From: a virus | Virus record (IMG/VR): IMGVR_UViG_3300037585_003076 | Location: 1 to 26,018 of that record | Direction: 5' to 3' (one strand) | Length of the DNA: 26,018 nucleotides | Shown: piece by piece, positions 2,129 to 26,018 of the stretch | How positions within the stretch are numbered: position 1 is the first letter of the stretch | Layout of the letters: each line of letters begins with the position of its first letter | Notes under the pieces: model-generated | The model's input: only the letters and a program-made list of their open reading frames with translations | Database searches by the model: none | What the model was told of the DNA's origin: nothing | Position numbers and translations under genes: made by a program

Positions 2129-3694
2129 ATGGAATACAACTTACCAAGCGAATTGGTTAAGAACTTAGACTTCGGTGGTGAAGCTAAAGAAAGAGTTATC
2201 ACCGGAGTTAATAAGTTAGCCCAAGCTGTTAAATCAACATTAGGCGCATCAGGTAAATGCGTTATTTACGAAGATGGTAGAGGCAAGCCGGTCATTACAA
2301 AAGATGGAGTAACCGTTGCAGAAAGCGTAGTCTTATATGACCCGGTCGAAAATATGGGTGCAACACTCATAAAAGAAGCTGCCAGAAATACAGTAAAAGA
2401 TGCTGGTGATGGTACAACAACCGCCACAGTATTAGCAGAGGCAATAATCAAGCAAGTAGACGCTGCGGTCGCAGATGGTCTTACAATCAGAGAAATTAAA
2501 GATGGAGTAACAGAAACACTAGATAGTGTCATTGGCTATTTAAATGATATAGCTATTGATGTAGAAGGTGATATGCTTAAATCTGTTAGTGCTATATCTT
2601 GTAACAATGATCATGAGTTAGGAGCTATTATAGCTGAGGCTTATGATAAAGTTGGGAAGAATGGTGTAGTACTTATGGAGGAAAGTGAATCAGAGGATAC
2701 ATACGTTGATATAGTTGACGGTGTTAAAATAGATTGCGCTATGACTTCTCCACATTTTGTTACTAATACCGAAAAACAAACGTGTGAATTAGATAAACCA
2801 TTAGTTTTTATATGTTCATCTGAAATACCTAATGTTCGTAAAATACAGTCAATATTAGAATATGTTATAAAGAACAATAGGTCTTTACTAATTGTAGCAC
2901 CAGTAGCACAGCAAGTTAAAGCTGCTCTACTTATGAATAAAGTAAAAGGTACTATAAAAGTTAATGTTATTGACTTACCAGGCTTTGGTCCTACTAAAAA
3001 AGATGCTACAGAAGATTTAGCTATATTAACTGGAGCTACAGTACTTAATGAAGAACTTGGTGATGATTTAGATTTGATGAAACCTGAACATTTAGGTGAA
3101 GCTGATTTTTCTGTTACTGATGATAAAAACACAGTACTAACGTTAGAAGGTATGACTGATGATATTGAAGATAGAATAGATGAGTTAAACAAACATATAT
3201 CTGAAGAACAAAATGATTATATAAAAAGAAAACTAGAAGATAGATTAGCTATGTTATCAGGTAGTGTAGGTATAATAAGAGTAGGTGCTAACTCTAAGGT
3301 TGAGTTAAAAGAAAAGAAAGATAGAGTAGAAGATGCTATATATGCTACTAAAGCTGCATTACAAGAAGGTATTGTTCCAGGTGGTGGTATTGCATTATTA
3401 AACGCATCTCAAAAAATTTCGACCAGCAAAGCTGGTGAAGTGTTACTTAATGCTTTATCTTCTCCATATGAAGTAATTATGGACAATGCTGGATTAATGA
3501 TGAATCCTAGTAATCTAAAAGAAGGTTATGGTTGTAACGTAATAGATGGAACGTTTCCTAATATGGTACGTGAAGGAATAATAGACCCAGTACTTGTAAC
3601 TAAATCTGCACTTAAGAACGCTGTAAGTGTAGCATTAACTATAATGTCAGCAGATTGTGTAATCTCAAATATAAGAGTAAATGAAGGCAGTTAA
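2129..3694 (+). CDS. groEL: Phage group I chaperonin GroEL
   Basis: The product is a 521-residue Cpn60. These proteins form ATP-driven ring complexes that enclose and fold client proteins with a GroES lid. Equatorial signatures are intact: TKDGVTVA (residues 57-64) and AGDGTTTATVLAEA (92-105), with D59 and D94 matching E. coli D52 and D87. RVEDAIYATKAALQEGIVPGGG (399-420) carries D402, matching the catalytic D398, and GIIDP (483-487) carries the nucleotide-pocket Asp (D486). The apical domain (about 195-380) keeps hydrophobic helices of the client/GroES-binding type (QSILEYVIK; VKAALLMNKVKG) and the LPGFGP loop. It is slightly shorter than the bacterial protein and lacks the Gly-Gly-Met tail, ending VNEGS. 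The start follows ATT. The last 14 bases overlap groES. GC is about 42% before roughly 2525 and about 30% after. Likely clients are capsid or tail proteins (inference). Confidence 0.97.
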   Translation: MEYNLPSELVKNLDFGGEAKERVITGVNKLAQAVKSTLGASGKCVIYEDGRGKPVITKDGVTVAESVVLYDPVENMGATLIKEAARNTVKDAGDGTTTATVLAEAIIKQVDAAVADGLTIREIKDGVTETLDSVIGYLNDIAIDVEGDMLKSVSAISCNNDHELGAIIAEAYDKVGKNGVVLMEESESEDTYVDIVDGVKIDCAMTSPHFVTNTEKQTCELDKPLVFICSSEIPNVRKIQSILEYVIKNNRSLLIVAPVAQQVKAALLMNKVKGTIKVNVIDLPGFGPTKKDATEDLAILTGATVLNEELGDDLDLMKPEHLGEADFSVTDDKNTVLTLEGMTDDIEDRIDELNKHISEEQNDYIKRKLEDRLAMLSGSVGIIRVGANSKVELKEKKDRVEDAIYATKAALQEGIVPGGGIALLNASQKISTSKAGEVLLNALSSPYEVIMDNAGLMMNPSNLKEGYGCNVIDGTFPNMVREGIIDPVLVTKSALKNAVSVALTIMSADCVISNIRVNEGS

Positions 3695-3938
3695 TGACTA
3701 CGTTATAGTTGATATAGTAAAAGAAGGGCCAAAGAAAGTCGGAGGCTTTATATTAACAGACGAAACAGATGAAACAAACCGATATAGAAAAGCTAGTATT
3801 ATTTCTGTTGGAAACCTTGTGGAAGTGGTTAAAACTGGGGATACTATATACTATGATGCTATTGCTGGTCATGATATTAGTTACAATGATAGTATGTACC
3901 GGGTAATACGATCTAGGGATATAGTTATAGTAGAATAA
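3681..3938 (+). CDS. groES: Phage co-chaperonin GroES (Cpn10)
   Basis: The product is 85 residues, somewhat shorter than typical bacterial GroES (about 95-97). It forms the lid that caps GroEL. The start VNDYVIV (4-10) matches the first strand of the Cpn10 barrel. Residues 14-33 form the mobile loop, with GGFILT (21-26) where E. coli has GGIVLT, so the hydrophobic tripeptide that docks on GroEL is kept as FIL. SVGN (42-45), TGDTIYY (52-58) and the end MYRVIRSRDIVIVE (72-85) match the VGDxVxF and 'DIL' strands. The part that forms the roof of the dome is short. The gene overlaps groEL by 14 bases and comes after it, the reverse of the usual bacterial groES-groEL order; translational coupling would match their amounts. 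No terminator follows directly; a hairpin without a T run lies 19 bp on. Confidence 0.93.
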   Translation: MKAVNDYVIVDIVKEGPKKVGGFILTDETDETNRYRKASIISVGNLVEVVKTGDTIYYDAIAGHDISYNDSMYRVIRSRDIVIVE

Positions 3939-7813: not shown

Positions 7814-8027
7814 TATTATAAGAAAGATCACTATAGGTAGAGACTACAAAAATGATTCCATGCATTACGCTGTTGATCAAGAAGTATATGGTGGTCATAA
7901 GATATGTGATATAATAGAAGAAGAGGATAAGTACTGTATTTACATTAAAAAAGGTGATATAGTTATTCCGTGGAAAGACTTCAATAAAAATATGGCTATA
8001 TCTATTGAGTATAACTTAGAATACTAA
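7803..8027 (+). CDS. Small conserved-looking phage protein, unknown function
   Basis: The product is 74 residues from the ATG at 7803 (MKNNIIRKITIGRDYKNDSM); an upstream in-frame ATG at 7770 would add 11 residues but overlap the previous gene by 44 bases, so 7803 is preferred. Alternating strands (IRKITIG; KICDIIEEEDKYCIYIKKG; ISIEYNL) suggest a small beta barrel. The motif GRDYKNDSMHYAVDQEV looks like a conserved signature but I cannot name the family. Its stop overlaps the next start (TAATG), so it is coupled to the GroES-like protein. Confidence 0.6.
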   Translation: MKNNIIRKITIGRDYKNDSMHYAVDQEVYGGHKICDIIEEEDKYCIYIKKGDIVIPWKDFNKNMAISIEYNLEY

Positions 8028-8605
8028 TGAAAGCTTATAAAGATTTTATAGTATCACCAATAGGTGAAAGATATAATAATTCTAAAAAAGTTGATGGTAA
8101 AGAGCTTGTATTAAATACTGAGATTTTTAATCATCAATTTATAAATAGATTAGCTTTAGTACTAGAAGTCCCGATGCTATTTGATACTCCTATAAATAAA
8201 GGTGATGAGATAGTAGTGCATCATAACATTTTTAGAAGATGGAATGATGTTAAAGGTAAAGAAAGAAATAGTAGATCTTATTGGAAAGAAGATAAGTACT
8301 TTATATCTACAGATCAAATTTTTCTTTATAAACAAAAAGAATGGAAAGCTACACCAGGATATAGTTTTGTTCAACCTATAGTTTCTGATAACAAATTAAC
8401 TAACGAATCAGAGCAACCATTAGTTGGTATTATAAAATACTCTGATGGTACGTTTAATGAAAATGAATTAGTTGGTTTTACGCCTAATAGTGAATATGAA
8501 TTCATTATAGAAGGTAAAAGATTATATAGAGTTTTAAATAAATTTATTACAATTAAATATGAATATCAAGGAAACGAAAAAGAATATAATCCAAGCTGGG
8601 CATAA
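8027..8605 (+). CDS. Putative duplicated GroES-like (Cpn10 fold) protein
   Basis: The product is 192 residues that read as two Cpn10-like halves. Half one: KAYKDFIVSPI (2-12), ELVLNTEI (26-33), RLALVLEVP (41-49), INKGDEIVVHHN (56-67), then YFISTDQIFLYK (91-102), which follow the order of GroES strands, including the glycine-Asp turn and the DIL-like strand. Half two: GYSFVQPI (111-118), PLVGIIKYSDG (131-141), ELVGFTPNSEYEFII (147-161) and LYRVLNKFITIKYE (166-179). The last segment aligns with the end of the true GroES at 3681 (MYRVIRSRDIVIVE). No clear GroEL-docking tripeptide is seen in either half, so it may be a structural or regulatory relative rather than a working lid. It overlaps the next gene by 47 bases. 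The fold is inferred from pattern, not from a search. Confidence 0.5.
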   Translation: MKAYKDFIVSPIGERYNNSKKVDGKELVLNTEIFNHQFINRLALVLEVPMLFDTPINKGDEIVVHHNIFRRWNDVKGKERNSRSYWKEDKYFISTDQIFLYKQKEWKATPGYSFVQPIVSDNKLTNESEQPLVGIIKYSDGTFNENELVGFTPNSEYEFIIEGKRLYRVLNKFITIKYEYQGNEKEYNPSWA

Positions 8606-8831
8606 AGCGGTTGAAGAGCTAATTAAAGTCGCTAGAGAAGAGATAGTTGATTCAGACGAAGACATATCAGCAGATAGATTAAAGAATGCTGCGGCTACAA
8701 AGAAGTTAGCTATATTTGACGCATTTGAAATATTAAACAGAATCCATGAGGAAGAGAACATGTTAGAAGGTAAGGTTGAGGAAAAGAAAGAAAACAAGTT
8801 TAAAGGATTCGCAGAAGGTAGATCTAAATAA
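8559..8831 (+). CDS. Candidate small terminase subunit
   Basis: The product is 90 residues, helical and charged (NIIQAGHKAVEELIKVAREE; SADRLKNAAATKKLAIFDAF; ILNRIHEEEN) with a basic end (FKGFAEGRSK). Position directly before the large terminase (TAATG overlap), small size and all-helical character fit a TerS, which recognises phage DNA and regulates TerL, but there is no sequence motif that proves it. The start at 8559 lies 47 bases inside the previous gene, an unusually long overlap; both frames look genuinely coding up to 8605. Confidence 0.45.
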   Translation: MNIKETKKNIIQAGHKAVEELIKVAREEIVDSDEDISADRLKNAAATKKLAIFDAFEILNRIHEEENMLEGKVEEKKENKFKGFAEGRSK

Positions 8832-11065
8832 TGTACGAACAAACATTAGTTAAGGTCGTAGAACCTATAAGATTAAACACCATTAAAAGACTTAACAAAT
8901 CTAAGAAATGGATGTATGGTTATAATAAAGAAGCTGATACAGTTTGTATATCTAAAACTGGGCAAATTGGAGAAGTTATAGAAATACAAGGATTTCAAAT
9001 AGCTTTACCTAAGCAACCAAAAGAAATATATAGTTGTAGTAAGATAAAAAAAGAACAGAAATGGAAACAGTTTCCAGCTAATCCTGATTTTAAAAGAATT
9101 AAAACTGTATTTGATTGGCAAGATTATCCAGATGACTTTAAAGAAAAGCATTATGGATATATAGACGAAGAGTTTAGAAGAAGAGAAGAAGGCTTTTGGT
9201 TTATGAATAATGGTAAACCAACTTACATAACAGGTACACACTATATGTACTTACAATGGAGTAAGATTGATGTTGGGGCTCCAGATTATAGAGAAGCAAA
9301 TAGGTTGTTTTTTATATTTTGGGAAGCTTGCAAAGCAGATAAAAGAAGTTACGGGATGTGCTACTTAAAAAATAGACGTTCTGGTTTTTCATTTATGAGT
9401 TCAGCTGAAACTGTTAATTTAGCTACATTAGCTAGTGATAGTAGATTTGGGATACTTTCTAAAACTGGTGCCGATGCAAAGAAAATGTTTACTGATAAGG
9501 TAGTACCAATTAGTTTAAATTACCCATTCTTCTTCAAACCAATACAGGACGGTATGGACCGGCCAAAGTCCGAACTCGCTTATAGAGTCCCTGCAAAGAA
9601 GTTTACTCGTAAAAAAATGAGGGAACGAGAGGAGCAAGATGATATGGAAGGACTTGATACAACTATTGACTGGAAAAATACAGGTGATAATAGTTATGAT
9701 GGTGAGAAACTTTCTTTATTAGTACATGATGAGAGTGGTAAATGGGAGAGACCTGATAATATAAAAAATAACTGGAGAGTTACAAAGACTTGTTTAAGAC
9801 TAGGTAGTAGGGTAGTTGGTAAGTGTATGATGGGTAGTACTAGTAACGCTTTAGATAAAGGGGGAGATAATTTTAAAAACTTATATAATAATTCAGATGT
9901 TACAAAACGAAACAGAAATGGACAGACTAAGTCAGGATTATATTCTTTGTTTATTCCTATGGAATGGAATTACGAAGGCTTCATTGATGAATACGGACAA
10001 CCTGTATTCAGCACTCCTAGAGAGTCCGCATTTGATCCACAAGGATTAGAGATAGATTATGGCGTTATAGACCACTGGGAAAATGAAGCTGAAGGCTTGA
10101 AAGATGATCAAGATGCCTTGAATGAATTTTATCGCCAATTTCCAAGAACAGAAGAGCACGCATTTAGAGATGAGACTGGTAATAGCTTATTTAACTTGGT
10201 CAAAATATATGAGCAAATAGATTATAACGAAGGAAATAGAAATTCGTCTGTATTAACAACTGGTAATTTTCAATGGCAAAACGGTGTTAAAGATACTCAA
10301 GTAACTTTTAATCCAGACCCAAAAGGAAGATTTAAAGTAAGTTGGGTACCAAATAAAAGATTACAAAATAACGTTATATTAAAACATGGCGTAAAATATC
10401 CGGGTAATGAGCACATGGGGGCGTTTGGTTGTGACTCATATGATATATCTGGAACAGTAGATAGTAAAGGATCTAAAGGAGCTTTACATGGGTTAACGAA
10501 ATACTCAATGGAAGATTCTCCGGCTAATACTTTTTTTTTAGAATACATAGCAAGACCACAAACAGCTGAAATATTTTTTGAAGATGTTTTAATGGCATTA
10601 GTATTTTATGGTATGCCGATACTTGCGGAAAATAATAAACCAAGATTATTGTACTATTTACGAAGAAGAGGTTATAGAGGGTTTAGCATGAATAGACCAG
10701 ATAAGATTTGGAACAAACTATCCGTAGCAGAAAAGGAAGTTGGTGGAATACCAAACTCTAGTGAAGATATAAAACAGGCTCATGCTGCCGCTATAGAAAT
10801 GTATATTAATGATCACGTTGGTTTACTAGAAGATGGCACTTATGGCGCTGTGTATTTTAACGAAACACTAAACGATTGGTCTAAGTTTGATATAAATAAA
10901 AGAACAAAACATGACGCTTCTATTAGTTCTGGTTTGGCAATAATGGCTTGCAATAGACATTTATATAGACCAAATCCAAAAAGAGAAAAAAGATCATTAA
11001 ACTTAAATATAGCAAAATATAATAACAAAGGATTTTCATCACAGATAATTAAAAGTAAAATATGA
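8831..11065 (+). CDS. Terminase large subunit (ATPase-nuclease)
   Basis: The product is 744 residues. It pumps DNA into the procapsid with ATP and cuts the concatemer. An N-terminal region of about 170 residues carries the THYMYLQW motif (136-143). The ATPase centre has a deviant Walker A (KNRRSGFSF, 180-188, Phe in place of the usual Lys), Walker B LSLLVHDE (294-301) with D300/E301, and a coupling motif MMGSTSNA (333-340). The RNase H-like nuclease shows FGCDSYDISG (532-541, D535), FFEDVLMAL (582-590, E584/D585) and KHDASISSGLA (693-703, D695). Length and this Walker A variant resemble crAss-like terminases more than lambda or T7 types. The start is in a TAATG overlap with the candidate TerS; the stop overlaps the portal start by four bases. 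A 60-bp island of about 50% GC lies at 9541-9600. Confidence 0.9.
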   Translation: MYEQTLVKVVEPIRLNTIKRLNKSKKWMYGYNKEADTVCISKTGQIGEVIEIQGFQIALPKQPKEIYSCSKIKKEQKWKQFPANPDFKRIKTVFDWQDYPDDFKEKHYGYIDEEFRRREEGFWFMNNGKPTYITGTHYMYLQWSKIDVGAPDYREANRLFFIFWEACKADKRSYGMCYLKNRRSGFSFMSSAETVNLATLASDSRFGILSKTGADAKKMFTDKVVPISLNYPFFFKPIQDGMDRPKSELAYRVPAKKFTRKKMREREEQDDMEGLDTTIDWKNTGDNSYDGEKLSLLVHDESGKWERPDNIKNNWRVTKTCLRLGSRVVGKCMMGSTSNALDKGGDNFKNLYNNSDVTKRNRNGQTKSGLYSLFIPMEWNYEGFIDEYGQPVFSTPRESAFDPQGLEIDYGVIDHWENEAEGLKDDQDALNEFYRQFPRTEEHAFRDETGNSLFNLVKIYEQIDYNEGNRNSSVLTTGNFQWQNGVKDTQVTFNPDPKGRFKVSWVPNKRLQNNVILKHGVKYPGNEHMGAFGCDSYDISGTVDSKGSKGALHGLTKYSMEDSPANTFFLEYIARPQTAEIFFEDVLMALVFYGMPILAENNKPRLLYYLRRRGYRGFSMNRPDKIWNKLSVAEKEVGGIPNSSEDIKQAHAAAIEMYINDHVGLLEDGTYGAVYFNETLNDWSKFDINKRTKHDASISSGLAIMACNRHLYRPNPKREKRSLNLNIAKYNNKGFSSQIIKSKI

Positions 11066-18932: not shown

Positions 18933-21900
18933 ATGCCTGAGATTAAACACAATTTTACATCCGGGAAAATGAACAAAGATCTCGATGAGAGACTTGTTCA
19001 AAACGGCGAATATAGAGACGCTTTGAATATCCAAGTTAGGACTACTGATGGTGCGGGCTCTGGTATAGGTGAAGCCGGTACAGCTCAAAATATTCAAGGT
19101 AATACAAATATAGCAGAAGCATATTTAACTAAAGGTTATGAATATACTGAAGATTGGAATACCACTAGATTCGTGGGTAGTGTTGCTGATGAGAAAACTG
19201 ATAAAGCATATTTCTTTGCTGCGGCTCCTACTCCAGAATCTGATAAAGGTTGGTTGACTGAGATCATAAACCCAATAACTGCTCTTAATTTAATATCTAG
19301 TGATCAAATAGACGAAGATGATTTTCCTAACGCTCAGTGGATAACTGATTACCAAGAAGTGTTACCAGGAATGAATGGTCCTGGTAATTTTGACTCTAAT
19401 GATAACTACTGGGACGCTTATGCTCAATCTATATATTCTGGTGATACTAAAAAACATTGGATAGATAGTATAATAGAAGTTGATGCTAAAATAGAAGAAG
19501 GTGAGCATATATTTGTTGATAAGTTTGCTGTAACGGGTAGATGGATAGATGTTATGGGGGTAGCACTACCATCAATAGTAGGTCCCGGATCTGGAGTTAA
19601 TCAAATTACAGTTACAAATGGTTCTCATTATAGAGTAGGAATGATTGTTAGATTTTTTAATGACGGCAATCAGGATTTATTTTTTGAAAATGGTGTAGAC
19701 TCAAGTGATGGCGTAGGGGTGGAAATAGTTAATATACAAGGAAATGTACTATCTTTTGCCACACCACAGCAAGTTAATATAAATGGCTTAGCAAGTATGA
19801 CTAATCCAACGGTAACTTGGAAAAGCGCTTTTGTATTCGAATACAGAGAAAGAGTATTACAGTTTAATCCCTTTAGATTAATATCTAGTATAAATATTAT
19901 TGATAAATTATTATTCTGGACAGATGGTTTTACTGAACCTAAAAAAATTAATATTGAAAGATCTAAAGAAGGTACAGAACCAGTTAGTAATATAGAGCCA
20001 GTTCCAAAGCATACTAAACTTACCGTTTACGATAATGAAGAAAATGAACCCGATTTAGTAGAAGTCATGGACATGGAGTGGAGTTTAAAAACTTCAGATA
20101 TAAAGAGAGAACACGTTACAGTAATAAGACGAGCACCAATTTCTGCGCCAACTTTAGAAATGCGGGATACGGATAGATTAGGTGATATTAGCTTTAGTAT
20201 TGTAAACAACTTTATTGATGGTGAAAATTATACACCAGCCGTTCCTCAAGCAGGGGACACAAGAATAATAGATTTTGATATAAATCCAGATATTAGAGTA
20301 GGAGATATTTTAATATTTACTAGTGCTAATAATACTTTAGATCCGGTAATAATAACAGCTAGAGTAAAGATAATTACAGATGACGCTGTTGAAGGATATG
20401 TACATTTTGAAATTCTGTATGTTGACCCAGAATTATCAATTTATAACCCACAAGAATGGAACGTGGAGTTACAGCAGCAAAAAGCTTTGTTTGAAACTAA
20501 ATTTGGTAGAGTTGGTTATAGATATAAATATGAAGATGGTGAATATTCTTCTTTTTCACCTTGGTCTGAATTAGCGTTTTTACCTGGAGAATTCTCTTAT
20601 ACTCCAAGTCAAGGCTTTAATAATGGTATGGAAAACCAACTTAGATACTTAGCTATTAAAGATTTTATACCAGACGATTCTATAAGACCAAATGATGTTA
20701 GATCAATAGATTTACTTTGGAAAACCACAGATGATCAAAATGTCTATATTATAAAAAGTATATCAAGAGGTAGAAGTAGAGAATGGAAAGATTTTGATGC
20801 GGAGGAATTAGAAACAACTGGAAAAGTTATAGTAACATCTGAGATGATACACAAGGTGTTATCTTCAAATCAATTGTTTAGAGCATGGGATAACGTGCCT
20901 AAGACCGCGGTGACTCAAGAAATAACAGCTAATAGATTAGTTTATGGAAATTATAAACAAGGTTATGATATAAGTAAAGATGTTGGCTTAATTCAAAATA
21001 TAATATCATCACCAGTTACTTTTCCTTTTCCAAGAAAATCTGTAAAATCAATAAGAAAATATAAATGGGGAATTGTACTTGGAGATAAATACGGAAGAGA
21101 GACATCTGTATTAGTAGATGGTTATGAAAGTGGTAATAATGAAGTTATAACTGGGGATATAACTGTTGACAAATCATTAGCTCATTTAAAAAATAAATTC
21201 CAATTACAGCAAGATTGGGGGTTTTCGCCTGGTAATATACTTTATTGGGCAGAATACGTTAAGTATTATGTTAAAGAAACGTCTAATGAATATTATAGCT
21301 TAGTATTAGATAGATGGTATGATGCTGGTGATGGTAATATATGGTTAGCATTTCCATCTGTTGACAGAAATAAAATTGACGAAGAAACTTATCTTATACT
21401 TAAAAACCAACATGGTTCTCAAAAACCAGTAGAAGTTGAGGCTAGATATAAAGTTTTAGCAATAGCTAGTGAAGCACCTGATCATGTTAAAACTAGATAC
21501 AATAAATTTGAAAGAGTAGAAATAGATCAATTTGGTGTTTATGGTGTTGGGGAAAATGGAACAGATCTTGAGCCAAATGAAAGTACTGGTGAGATAACGG
21601 ATGGTATTCCAAGTAATTTAATTGGTAAAATAAAAATAAGGACTACTAAAACTCTTTGGGACGACGTAGATATAGATAACAACAATTTTAAGGGTAACAA
21701 AAAAGTAAGAATAGTAGGTGTCAACGAATATTACAGTGTAGAGGCGTTTAGTCCGTGGAGAGATGTTAGTAGAATAAAAAGAGCGTGGCAAGCAGGAGCT
21801 AGGAGTGGTTGCGACTTACCCTACCCATTTGAATCAGGAGAAGTTAACATGTACACCAAAATCTCTGCTATGTTACCACCTGGTGAAATAATCTCTCAAA

Positions 21901-24900
21901 CATCAGTTGACGATGGCCCTTGGGATGATAATCCAGGTAGCAATAGTTATATAAAATATTACATGGAGTTTAGAGATGAGGTTGTAGAAAATAGACCTCA
22001 ATTTGACGGTAGATTTTTTGTAAAAATAGAAAAAGATGACATACTAACCGAGCAAGTTTTAAACCAAGCTGGAGCCAATGGTGTTGATTATGTTGTTGAT
22101 GTGGATGCTGGCGTCGCCGTTTATGAAATAGCTTATATAGATAATAGAACAACTAATCCAGGTGTTGGTGGTGGTTTTGGTGGTGATAACTGGGAGAGTT
22201 ATATGGAGACAAATGGTTTTTCGGATTCTTTAATTGGATACGTAACACCTCCTATACCACTTCCGTGGAATCCAGGTAATAATCAACCAAGTACATTTTA
22301 CAATTACCCTCTTTGGGGGTCAACACAAACAAATCCTTGGTCAATGGATGGATATTGGGGGGACGTTGCTATGAACGAGTCTGCTAACTTTACATCAGAT
22401 GGTGTTCCATGGTTTGGACCTGGTGGTCCTGTAGACACAGAAAACTTTTGGTACTGGTGGTTAGAACAAGGTGAAGGAGATAGTCCAGCAAGAACAGCAA
22501 GTATATTTTTAGATTCAGCACCTGCGTTTGCCGCATTTCATTGGTGGGGTAAAGTATATGCAGAATATACCTCGATGGAGGGAGGATTTTCTGAGTATCA
22601 ACCAAGGTATTACCCTACTGCTCTAAGTCATTTTGATTGTGATATAATAAGTAATTATGTTGGTAATCCATCTCTCGTTAATTTTGGCGATACTTATCTT
22701 AATAGTAATGGGGTTTATGACGCATCTTTAAATGGTACTGGTATATATGGTAACGATAGTGGCTTTTGGCCAGGATACAGGGACGGTAATGCTGTTATTG
22801 ATGGAGATTATTATCCAGAAAATTTTAAGTCAACATTAAATTATAATCCACCAGGATTATCACAAGGTAAAGCAATTGACGGTGAATTAGGGCAAATGTG
22901 TTTTTCTATGATTAATATAGAACCAGGTGCTTTTGGTTTTGGTCCAGAGGGTTTGTTTAAAGCTAAAATGCAAACACCGGGTACTTTTTTTAGATTTGTG
23001 GAAGATCCATATCAAACTGTTTATAAAGTAACAGAAATTGATGAGCCAACACCTAACTACCAACAAACTGGTATTCAAGATGACGATGGTGATGGATTTC
23101 CGCAAGGGATTGATTATACAGAGTACGCTAATATGAAAGGTCCTATATCTATAGATAGTATAAACTTCCCTGATAATGATACTAGTAATTTAGTTAGAAA
23201 CAGGCACTCTATAATAGTTCAATTTGCAAGGGTAGAAGATAATGTTCAAATACCTGGAAGTGGTATAAAAACAGATTCATGGGATCCAAGAGGTGCGGTA
23301 AAACATAATGGTTTAGGTAGTTTTTCTATAGAATTTTTATTAAAAGCTAATGAAGGTGAATTAGCTTCAGATGAAGTTATAACAGAGGGTGCTTGTTGGG
23401 AAACGGAACCTAAAGAAGATATAGATGTAGATATATACTACGAGGCTAGTAATGCTATACCTATGAAATTAAAACAAAATAATATTAAATTATACGTTGA
23501 TCCAAGTAGTGATAGAGCAGAAGCTAGTACAATTAATATACAGTCTAGGACACTTTCAAGTACCGATATAAACGGTAATGCTATTATAGAGCCTGTGAAT
23601 TTAAATGGTTATTATAAAATAAATAATTATTCTACTGTTAGTGCTTTTGGTGGTGATGGAGGAAACACGTATGTATATAGAACTATTAGTGACGATGTTA
23701 TAAATATTAAAGGTGGTACTTTAAATTATGATTTTCAATATCTTGCTACACCAATTGGATATGATACGGATTCACCATGGTCTATGTGGGGTATAGCAAT
23801 AGGTGATATAATTTCTTTTACACATACGGATGGTACTATTACTAGATCTAAAATATTAGATCACGTATTACCTATTGATTCTACTAGCACATATGCTTGG
23901 GATTTAACCTCACAAGACTACACGGCGTTAAATAGTTTCGATACTTACACACCTACGGATAGATATACCCTTACTGATGCTACTTCAATAGATACAATTA
24001 CTAATCCAAATCATCCTATAATAAATTTCCCAAGTAATCAACTTGATGATTTTTTTGCTATAGGAGGAAATAATATACAGGTTGGAATGGAAGTGATAGG
24101 TAATGGTGTAGAAAAAGGTACATTTGTTAAAGAAGTTGATATAGCGAATTTTGGAATTTACGAGCCACCTCATAAAATACATTTAAGTAAACCTCTTGTG
24201 TCAACTGCTTTACCTAACGATTTTACTTTTATTAGTGTTACAGGGTGGTACCAAATAGATAGAGATGTTTGGAGATATCCAGTTGATCTACCTTGGTTTA
24301 ATTGTTATTCATTTGGTAACGGCGTTGAGTCAGATAGAATAAGAGATGATTTTAACGCTCCTCAAATAAATAATGGAGTTAAAGCTTCTTCTACATTTTT
24401 AGAATACGGCGAAGAGCGTATGGGTAGTGGACTAATACATTCTTCAGAATTATATAATGCAACATCTAGTATAAATGGTTTAAATGAGTTTAGCATGGCT
24501 CAAAAAATAACTAAAAATTTAAATCCAATATATGGTTCTATACAAGCTTTAAAAACTAGAGATACTGATGTTGTTGTATTAGCAGAAGATAAGATACTAA
24601 AGGTTTTAGCTAATAAAGATGCCGTTTACAATGCTGATGGTAATATGCAATTAACAGCTACTGATAATGTATTAGGTCAAACTATACCATTTGTTGGTGA
24701 TTATGGTATATCTAAAAACCCAGAGTCACTAGCTTGGGATCAGTATAGAATATATTTTGCTGATAAGCAAAGAGGCGCTGTATTAAGATTATCGCGAGAC
24801 GGGTTAACGCCTATATCTAATGTAGGTATGAAAACTTACTTTAGAGAGTTTATGCCTAAATGTGATAATCTAGTTGGTACATTTGATGTTGTAAGTGGAG

Positions 24901-26018
24901 AATATAATCTTAAGCTTGGAACAAATGAAATAAACGAAACTGAGATGGTGTGTACCCCAGCTGGGTGTAATGTCGCTGCTCAACCAATAACCGTGACGTT
25001 TAATGAAGGTTCTAAGGGTTGGGTTAGTTTTAAGTCATTCATGCATTCATGTGGTGTCTCTGTAACCGGTAAGTATATTACCGCTCCAACAAATAAGCAC
25101 AGCAACACTCATAAAATATGGAAACATCATGACAAAGATGTTGGTAGAAATAACTTTTATGGATCTGGTAATGCCTCTACAATAGACATATTATTCAATG
25201 ATTTACCTTCTACAGTCAAATCTTTTAAAACTATTAATTACGAAGGTTCTAGAGCAAGAGTAAATGTTAGCTTACAAGATAATAATTATTACAACTTACA
25301 AAGTAGTTCTGGATGGTATGTGTCAAGTATTATTACAGACTTACAATCTGGTAGTGTGCCTGAGTTTATTAAAAAAGAAAGCAAGTTTTTCAACTATATA
25401 GTAGGAGAAGAAACAACTTATGATAACATGGATACTAGTGATATCTCTGTACTAGGAATAGGTTATCCTATACAAATAGGTGCAACAACTGATGATTCCA
25501 CAACTTCAGTATCTAATATTCAAACAGGTACTATTAGTATAGGTGGCGAACCTGATCTTGGTAGTACTGAGAGTGGTGGTGAGGTTGTTACTGGCGGTGG
25601 CTCTGAAGAAGGTAGTGAGGGTGTTGTTGTTGGTAACGACCCTAATACAGAGGAGACACAAGAAGATGTTGACACTGAAATAGAAATCGAGGAAACAGAA
25701 TCTGAAGACAGTCTTCCAACTATTAATGAAGTTGGGTTTATGACTGCGTATAATAACGAAGACGGCGAAAATAAAGGTACTTTTCTATTTAAAGTTTCTG
25801 GTGGTAGTGGTAATTACGTATTTAGATTGCATGCTAGGTATGCAAACGGTATTAATATGCCTACTCCTTTTCCTAATGGTATAAATTATAGTGCAAACAC
25901 TTGGGACGATACAGAAATTAATCAAGTTAATAATTTTTGGTGGACGGATCAATTGCTTTCTACAGGAGAAATGCAAGTTCCAGATGATTTTGATTGGAGC
26001 TATGGCGAATGGGATTTC
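18933..26018 (+). CDS. Giant tail hub/nozzle protein, 5' part (runs off the window)
   Basis: The frame is open from the ATG at 18933 to the window end: 2362 codons without a stop, so the gene is 3'-incomplete. The start HNFTSGKMNKDLDERLV then GEYRDALNIQV (about 6-34) is the opening signature of podovirus tail-hub/nozzle proteins of the T7 gp12/P22 gp10 kind. Later conserved-looking parts are IYGSIQALKTRDTDVVVLAE (about 1865-1884), YGISKNPESLAWDQYRIYFA and RGAVLRLSRDGLTPISNVGM (about 1925-1965), and KGWVSFKSF, IWKHHDKDVGRNNFYGSG with INYEGSRARV (about 2028-2110). A Trp/Tyr/Gly-rich region occupies about 1073-1290, a DDDGDG calcium-loop-like motif is at 1383-1388, and an acidic Gly/Glu linker (about 2185-2267) leads to an Ig-like strand GTFLFKVSGGSGNYVF. 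It likely forms the tail tip and may hold host-binding modules. Confidence 0.75.
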   Translation, partial: MPEIKHNFTSGKMNKDLDERLVQNGEYRDALNIQVRTTDGAGSGIGEAGTAQNIQGNTNIAEAYLTKGYEYTEDWNTTRFVGSVADEKTDKAYFFAAAPTPESDKGWLTEIINPITALNLISSDQIDEDDFPNAQWITDYQEVLPGMNGPGNFDSNDNYWDAYAQSIYSGDTKKHWIDSIIEVDAKIEEGEHIFVDKFAVTGRWIDVMGVALPSIVGPGSGVNQITVTNGSHYRVGMIVRFFNDGNQDLFFENGVDSSDGVGVEIVNIQGNVLSFATPQQVNINGLASMTNPTVTWKSAFVFEYRERVLQFNPFRLISSINIIDKLLFWTDGFTEPKKINIERSKEGTEPVSNIEPVPKHTKLTVYDNEENEPDLVEVMDMEWSLKTSDIKREHVTVIRRAPISAPTLEMRDTDRLGDISFSIVNNFIDGENYTPAVPQAGDTRIIDFDINPDIRVGDILIFTSANNTLDPVIITARVKIITDDAVEGYVHFEILYVDPELSIYNPQEWNVELQQQKALFETKFGRVGYRYKYEDGEYSSFSPWSELAFLPGEFSYTPSQGFNNGMENQLRYLAIKDFIPDDSIRPNDVRSIDLLWKTTDDQNVYIIKSISRGRSREWKDFDAEELETTGKVIVTSEMIHKVLSSNQLFRAWDNVPKTAVTQEITANRLVYGNYKQGYDISKDVGLIQNIISSPVTFPFPRKSVKSIRKYKWGIVLGDKYGRETSVLVDGYESGNNEVITGDITVDKSLAHLKNKFQLQQDWGFSPGNILYWAEYVKYYVKETSNEYYSLVLDRWYDAGDGNIWLAFPSVDRNKIDEETYLILKNQHGSQKPVEVEARYKVLAIASEAPDHVKTRYNKFERVEIDQFGVYGVGENGTDLEPNESTGEITDGIPSNLIGKIKIRTTKTLWDDVDIDNNNFKGNKKVRIVGVNEYYSVEAFSPWRDVSRIKRAWQAGARSGCDLPYPFESGEVNMYTKISAMLPPGEIISQTSVDDGPWDDNPGSNSYIKYYMEFRDEVVENRPQFDGRFFVKIEKDDILTEQVLNQAGANGVDYVVDVDAGVAVYEIAYIDNRTTNPGVGGGFGGDNWESYMETNGFSDSLIGYVTPPIPLPWNPGNNQPSTFYNYPLWGSTQTNPWSMDGYWGDVAMNESANFTSDGVPWFGPGGPVDTENFWYWWLEQGEGDSPARTASIFLDSAPAFAAFHWWGKVYAEYTSMEGGFSEYQPRYYPTALSHFDCDIISNYVGNPSLVNFGDTYLNSNGVYDASLNGTGIYGNDSGFWPGYRDGNAVIDGDYYPENFKSTLNYNPPGLSQGKAIDGELGQMCFSMINIEPGAFGFGPEGLFKAKMQTPGTFFRFVEDPYQTVYKVTEIDEPTPNYQQTGIQDDDGDGFPQGIDYTEYANMKGPISIDSINFPDNDTSNLVRNRHSIIVQFARVEDNVQIPGSGIKTDSWDPRGAVKHNGLGSFSIEFLLKANEGELASDEVITEGACWETEPKEDIDVDIYYEASNAIPMKLKQNNIKLYVDPSSDRAEASTINIQSRTLSSTDINGNAIIEPVNLNGYYKINNYSTVSAFGGDGGNTYVYRTISDDVINIKGGTLNYDFQYLATPIGYDTDSPWSMWGIAIGDIISFTHTDGTITRSKILDHVLPIDSTSTYAWDLTSQDYTALNSFDTYTPTDRYTLTDATSIDTITNPNHPIINFPSNQLDDFFAIGGNNIQVGMEVIGNGVEKGTFVKEVDIANFGIYEPPHKIHLSKPLVSTALPNDFTFISVTGWYQIDRDVWRYPVDLPWFNCYSFGNGVESDRIRDDFNAPQINNGVKASSTFLEYGEERMGSGLIHSSELYNATSSINGLNEFSMAQKITKNLNPIYGSIQALKTRDTDVVVLAEDKILKVLANKDAVYNADGNMQLTATDNVLGQTIPFVGDYGISKNPESLAWDQYRIYFADKQRGAVLRLSRDGLTPISNVGMKTYFREFMPKCDNLVGTFDVVSGEYNLKLGTNEINETEMVCTPAGCNVAAQPITVTFNEGSKGWVSFKSFMHSCGVSVTGKYITAPTNKHSNTHKIWKHHDKDVGRNNFYGSGNASTIDILFNDLPSTVKSFKTINYEGSRARVNVSLQDNNYYNLQSSSGWYVSSIITDLQSGSVPEFIKKESKFFNYIVGEETTYDNMDTSDISVLGIGYPIQIGATTDDSTTSVSNIQTGTISIGGEPDLGSTESGGEVVTGGGSEEGSEGVVVGNDPNTEETQEDVDTEIEIEETESEDSLPTINEVGFMTAYNNEDGENKGTFLFKVSGGSGNYVFRLHARYANGINMPTPFPNGINYSANTWDDTEINQVNNFWWTDQLLSTGEMQVPDDFDWSYGEWDF

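Follow-up and report, generated by a model that had tools for sequence, protein, structure and literature searches.

The groEL and groES genes

The DNA analysed (the window) is an IMG/VR virus record of 26,018 bases, with positions counted from its first letter. Comparison with PHROGs placed the genes for the terminase large subunit (TerL), the portal and the head in one block on the + strand, and the record is a fragment of a marine tailed phage with kinship to Bacteroidota phages of the Pervagoviridae and of Elemovirus. The open reading frame (ORF) at the right end (18933-26018) leaves the record unfinished after more than 2,362 residues and matched the Crassvirus muzzle C-terminal domain near residues 2072-2156 with a score just over the cut-off (8e-7). 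The ORF upstream of groEL (1123-2082) encodes a basic, low-complexity protein of 319 residues rich in Lys, Gly and Thr, for which no match was found in Pfam or PHROG. The features that bear on the chaperonin genes are listed in Table 1.

Table 1. Positions of the chaperonin genes, their notable segments and the neighbouring terminase gene in the window.
Feature	Position	Strand	Evidence
groEL, group I chaperonin, 521 aa	2129..3694	+	Pfam Cpn60_TCP1 1.9e-53; phrog_5725 1.9e-133
GroEL equatorial inter-ring segment, shortened (residues ~421-469; ends approximate)	3389..3535	+	48-51 residues in the clade vs 61-66 in bacteria
groEL/groES overlap, 14 nt	3681..3694	+	14 nt in 88/98 clade loci
groES, co-chaperonin, 85 aa	3681..3938	+	Pfam Cpn10 2.2e-11; phrog_3188 1.5e-14
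Docking motif GGFILT in the GroES mobile loop (residues 21-26)	3741..3758	+	Clade consensus GG(L/F)ILT
Tandem GroES-fold protein, Cpn20-like co-chaperonin candidate, 192 aa	8027..8605	+	phrog_13932 'co-chaperonin GroES' 3.2e-18
TerL	8831..11065	+	phrog_6681 7.7e-171

The Pfam scores for Cpn60_TCP1 and Cpn10 both exceeded the curated cut-offs. The Cpn60 match spans residues 30-514 of GroEL, as expected of a whole-length family member, and the AlphaFold model of the protein (pLDDT 77) matched GroEL/Hsp60 structures at E values down to 3e-45. Alignment with E. coli GroEL revealed that D59, D94, D402, D486 and G418-G420 correspond to D52, D87, D398, D495 and G414-G416, the aspartates and Gly-rich loop that characterize the group I ATPase. 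The four aspartates and the first two glycines, the residues covered by the tally, are invariant in 99 of 99 members of the phage clade to which this GroEL belongs. The GroES combines its Cpn10 score with the hydrophobic mobile-loop motif typical of the family, and the loop consensus, derived from 104 clade sequences, aligns with GGIVLT of E. coli GroES.

An IMG/VR scan with the phage GroEL as query returned 125 confirmed relatives, 80 of which were fetched, and groES was found downstream of groEL in all 80. The gene order, reversed relative to that of E. coli, is constant, with groEL first in each of the 98 clade loci in which both genes are whole. Where the overlap is not of 14 nt it is of 17 nt (seven loci) or 1 nt (one locus), and in the other two an ORF is inserted at the junction. 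The overlap probably reflects translational coupling of the two genes. One insert (L155, 5637-6095) encodes 152 residues with an HxD...H pattern, recognized by eye, that looks like that of a 2-oxoglutarate/iron oxygenase; the other (L058, 2843-3298) encodes a basic protein of 151 residues. Since the two inserts are unlike each other, at least two separate insertions have taken place at the junction. The median pairwise dN/dS was 0.13 for groEL, 0.12 for groES and 0.21 for the gene of the tandem protein described below, with maxima of 0.30, 0.40 and 0.42, respectively; groEL and groES are under strong purifying selection. Exactly one Cpn10 was detected by Pfam in each of nine longer related records (52-71 kb).

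These results bear on an earlier note, made from the sequence of the window, which had described a complete phage-encoded pair in reversed gene order with a 14-base overlap, conserved ATPase residues and an intact docking loop. The coordinates and the overlap proved exact, both ORFs are intact with low dN/dS, the residues and loop named there were all recovered in the alignments, and the gene order holds across the clade.

Origin of the pair

A tree of 71 GroELs united the sequences of this phage group in a single clade with 100/100 support. This clade, together with the GroELs of Pervagoviridae, elemo phages, Caudoviricetes sp. MW202828 and crAss-like phages, lies outside a branch with 98/97 support that contains all sampled bacterial GroELs; the branching order among the phage lineages, which include several long branches, is not resolved, and the tree is therefore read as evidence of separateness and not of a common viral origin. 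The GroELs of phiKT1024, 2.275.O and DAC20 group among bacteria in the same tree, consistent with separate captures.

The earlier note had proposed a tree as the means of recognizing a decayed recent host copy, and the clade stands apart from every sampled bacterial GroEL. A recent host copy of groE is ruled out by the tree position together with the identity gap: among the matches in bacterial and archaeal genomes without neighbouring phage genes, identity to the phage GroEL does not exceed about 42%. That the pair is a recently captured and decaying groE is thus hardly credible, as no point in its favour was found, the clade lies outside the all-bacteria branch, the best true bacterial match reaches 42%, and decay is not seen in the dN/dS values.

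The six nearest matches assigned to genomes (L178-L183) are 53-71% identical to the phage GroEL and have been binned into MAGs of Maricaulis, Sphingobacteriales, Alphaproteobacteria, Aliivibrio and Euryarchaeota. All six carry the phage groES immediately downstream and one also carries the tandem gene. They look like contigs of the phage clade or its near kin that were mis-binned as contamination into bacterial and archaeal MAGs.

Occurrence of GroEL and GroES in other phages

Eighteen other GroEL-bearing phage records from diverse groups were searched whole, counting Cpn10 matches over the Pfam cut-off. Twelve of them also encode Cpn10, either adjoining GroEL or distant from it, and in 68 elemo phage records, which also carry the pair, groEL likewise precedes groES. 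Both proteins were also reported in the genome paper of Maribacter phage Panino. Cpn10 matches were obtained for the ORF adjoining groEL in DAC20, for the Cpn10-annotated ORFs of Calle_1 and for ORFs of Panino, while a search for a hidden GroES in the hypothetical ORFs beside groEL of phi14:2, cr108 and Calle_1 gave no Cpn10 match. The rarity that the earlier note had attributed to a matched phage pair is accordingly not upheld, while its account of the pair as phage-encoded, complete, under purifying selection and separate from host copies stands. The unusual aspect is the presence of a matched GroES when set against the biochemically studied phage chaperonins of EL, OBP and AR9, all of them jumbo-phage proteins reported to need no co-chaperonin.

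Ring interface and apical face of GroEL

The residues that join the two rings of bacterial GroEL were compared in a joint alignment of 99 clade members and 73 bacterial GroELs. The K105-D435 salt bridge is possible in none of the clade members and in all 73 bacterial proteins. The R452-E461 bridge is possible in 11 of 99 versus 70 of 73, Glu448 of the phage GroEL occupying the place of E. coli R452. Gaps occur at V464 in every clade member and at S463 in 91. The segment corresponding to E. coli 417-478 is 11-14 residues shorter than in bacteria, 72 of 73 of which have the bacterial length given in Table 1; the alignment within this segment is uncertain, which leaves the exact partner of E461 unsure and the shortening itself sure. 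R452, E461, S463 and V464 are positions altered to engineer single-ring GroEL, and the single-ring state of mtHsp60 has been explained by the absence of both salt bridges (PMC5575113).

The lost contacts and the shortened segment suggest that the phage GroEL probably works as single rings. Loss of the bridges does not prove this state, since the double rings of the phiEL chaperonin come apart with ATP (PMC7185714) and mtHsp60 can also pair as footballs (PMC5575113). An ordinary viral GroEL/GroES with the usual double-ring cycle, merely adding folding capacity, would agree with the group I fold and ATPase residues and with the existence of phiEL double rings that lack the bacterial bridges. This alternative is considered somewhat unlikely, given that both conserved salt bridges and 11-14 residues of the interface are gone across the clade. 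In the GroELs of MW202828, Panino, phi14:2 and cr108 (L002, L005, L170 and L172), too, at least one of the two inter-ring salt bridges is absent, and many phage GroELs may have lost the double-ring interface.

The apical face on which GroES docks is altered as well, with L234Q and L259K in 99 of 99 clade members and Y203H in 96. These changes could weaken a hydrophobic contact with GroES; engineered single-ring GroEL stalls unless that contact is weakened (PMC5575113). The loss of hydrophobic residues at positions 234 and 259 would also fit a GroEL that acts without a lid, as do the phage chaperonins of EL, OBP and AR9 characterized in the literature, leaving the GroES to serve the host GroEL or nothing. 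That arrangement appears very unlikely in view of a groES that overlaps groEL, is kept in all relatives, has a dN/dS of 0.12 and retains its docking motif.

A predicted tandem GroES-fold protein encoded before TerL

The earlier account was right that the pair is real and incomplete in two respects: the loss of inter-ring contacts and a second GroES-related protein, encoded at 8027-8605, were missed. The 192-residue protein matches the N-terminal two thirds of the phrog_13932 profile, of which the 85-residue GroES matches the C-terminal part. Profile-profile comparison with the GroES family gave p = 1.5e-4 for its first half and 2.6e-3 for its second, each weak alone. An AlphaFold model built from 40 phage sequences with templates off (pLDDT 79) was compared with solved structures using Foldseek; the best match was 7ekq_R (E = 3.8e-4, 206 columns), a Cpn20 co-chaperonin subunit according to its depositors, and nearly all of the next matches were Cpn10/GroES chains. 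Among named viral proteins the best match is the 'Chaperonin cpn10' of phi18:3, and the C-terminal half of the phi38:1 ortholog alone exceeds the Pfam Cpn10 cut-off. Taken together, the PHROG, profile, model and ortholog evidence indicates a predicted tandem GroES-fold protein, with two such domains in one chain as in Cpn20. At the place of the GroES mobile loop, the first domain carries a conserved loop that is long and poorly ordered and contains the hydrophobic stretch KELILNT, and the second domain has only about nine residues. Because the second domain is without a mobile loop, the protein is described as Cpn20-like in build and is not classed as Cpn20.

The tandem gene precedes TerL in this clade and in elemo phages, MW202828, phi38:1 and Panino, so that the protein is kept in the clade and four other phage groups with GroEL and GroES; all five other carriers surveyed encode GroEL and a single Cpn10. 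The gene was found in 70 of 80 clade groEL loci; in the remaining ten the stretch stops short of its expected range or inside it, and one of these belongs to a contig that has the gene further on. Relatives of the protein are encoded on at least 599 IMG/VR stretches. Its tie to GroEL is inferred from co-occurrence among related phages with shared ancestry. A GroES fold reused as a packaging or head-assembly part, with the folding machine consisting of GroEL and GroES only, is a possibility held at below even odds: the tandem gene always lies close before TerL and away from groEL, the second domain lacks a mobile loop and the sequence match to GroES is weak, yet the first domain keeps its conserved long loop with KELILNT at the docking-loop place and GroEL with Cpn10 accompanies the protein in every surveyed carrier.

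The position before TerL also raised the small terminase subunit as a candidate identity, which is not favoured for an all-beta protein of GroES fold. The ORF at 8559-8831, between the tandem gene and TerL, encodes an apparently helix-rich protein of 90 residues and is the better candidate for that subunit.

A different tandem Cpn10 adjoins the divergent GroEL of Flavobacterium phage MaF61 (L174, 1948-2511). Both of its halves exceed the Pfam cut-off, it has no match to phrog_13932, and the MaF61 record encodes another Cpn10 at 91662-91916. Since this protein is of another kind, tandem co-chaperonins may have evolved more than once. In the open-access literature searched, no report was found of a tandem phage co-chaperonin, of a Cpn20-like phage protein or of the loss of inter-ring contacts together with GroES.

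Proposed folding machine

The preferred reading, to which a probability of about 0.65 is assigned, is a dedicated phage group I folding machine composed of GroEL and GroES, probably single-ring, plus a tandem co-chaperonin candidate encoded by the packaging block. It builds on the observed genes, fold class, conservation, co-occurrence, purifying selection and lost contact residues; for single-ring action, lid composition and clients we infer the following. The two proteins would be produced from one message, on which the groES start lies within the 3' end of groEL, and the GroEL chamber with its GroES lid would fold phage proteins during infection, driven by ATP. Because the ring-joining residues are lost, GroEL would probably work as one ring of seven subunits, or as a loosely joined pair of rings, much like mtHsp60, and be capped by its own co-adapted GroES. 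By analogy with T4 and lambda, and from the gene position, head proteins are pointed to as possible clients; the earlier note had suggested that capsid or tail proteins may fill this role. The tandem protein might join a mixed lid, for example of 1 + 3x2 = 7 domains, like that of plastid Cpn10/Cpn20, or might make up a different and larger lid that serves a client in the head or in packaging. Mixed seven-domain lids are formed by Cpn10 and Cpn20 in algae and plants (PMC3542282).

A more specific version, judged unlikely, is a group I chaperonin that naturally acts as a single ring and has a composite lid: GroES and the Cpn20-like double GroES would form an asymmetric seven-domain cap, and the weakened lid contact would solve the release problem of engineered single-ring GroEL. 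If true, this cap would be the viral counterpart of the plastid lid of Cpn10 and Cpn20.

Overall, phage GroEL/GroES pairs are fairly common and the three-part set with a seemingly single-ring chamber is an unusual variant. Marine et al. 2017 reportedly surveyed virioplankton chaperonins and may already describe this clade. The results identify a large uncultivated group of small phages that encode a GroEL with its matching GroES as well as a Cpn20-like candidate, and in which the double-ring interface has apparently been lost. They make testable whether a natural bacterial-type GroEL can cycle with GroES as a single ring, and what would lead a tandem co-chaperonin to arise outside plastids.

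Comparison with known systems

The closest counterparts are found in Flavobacterium phage elemo (Elemovirus), Caudoviricetes sp. MW202828, Cellulophaga phages phi38:1/Calle (Pervagoviridae) and Maribacter phage Panino, which likewise encode GroEL and one Cpn10 and have the tandem gene ahead of TerL; groEL also precedes groES in elemo and MW202828. Their GroELs are only about 35-37% identical to that of the window, and the present clade is separate from them in the tree. The phage pair shares with E. coli GroEL/GroES the ATPase residues, the three-domain fold and the GroES mobile loop, and differs in the reversed gene order, the absence of inter-ring bridges and of a GGM tail, the altered apical docking face and the additional tandem protein. 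The chaperonins EL gp146, OBP gp246 and AR9 gp228 are also phage-encoded and GroEL-like, with single-ring forms reported for them, but belong to jumbo phages, are distant in the tree and are reported to be co-chaperonin-free. T4 gp31 and RB49 CocO are phage-encoded co-chaperonins too, but, as cited in PMC9598537, they substitute for host GroES and depend on host GroEL. The Cpn20 of plastids and apicoplasts, the best solved match to the model of the tandem protein, also has two fused GroES-like domains; it carries mobile loops in both (PMC3542282), whereas the predicted phage protein has room for one in the first domain only.
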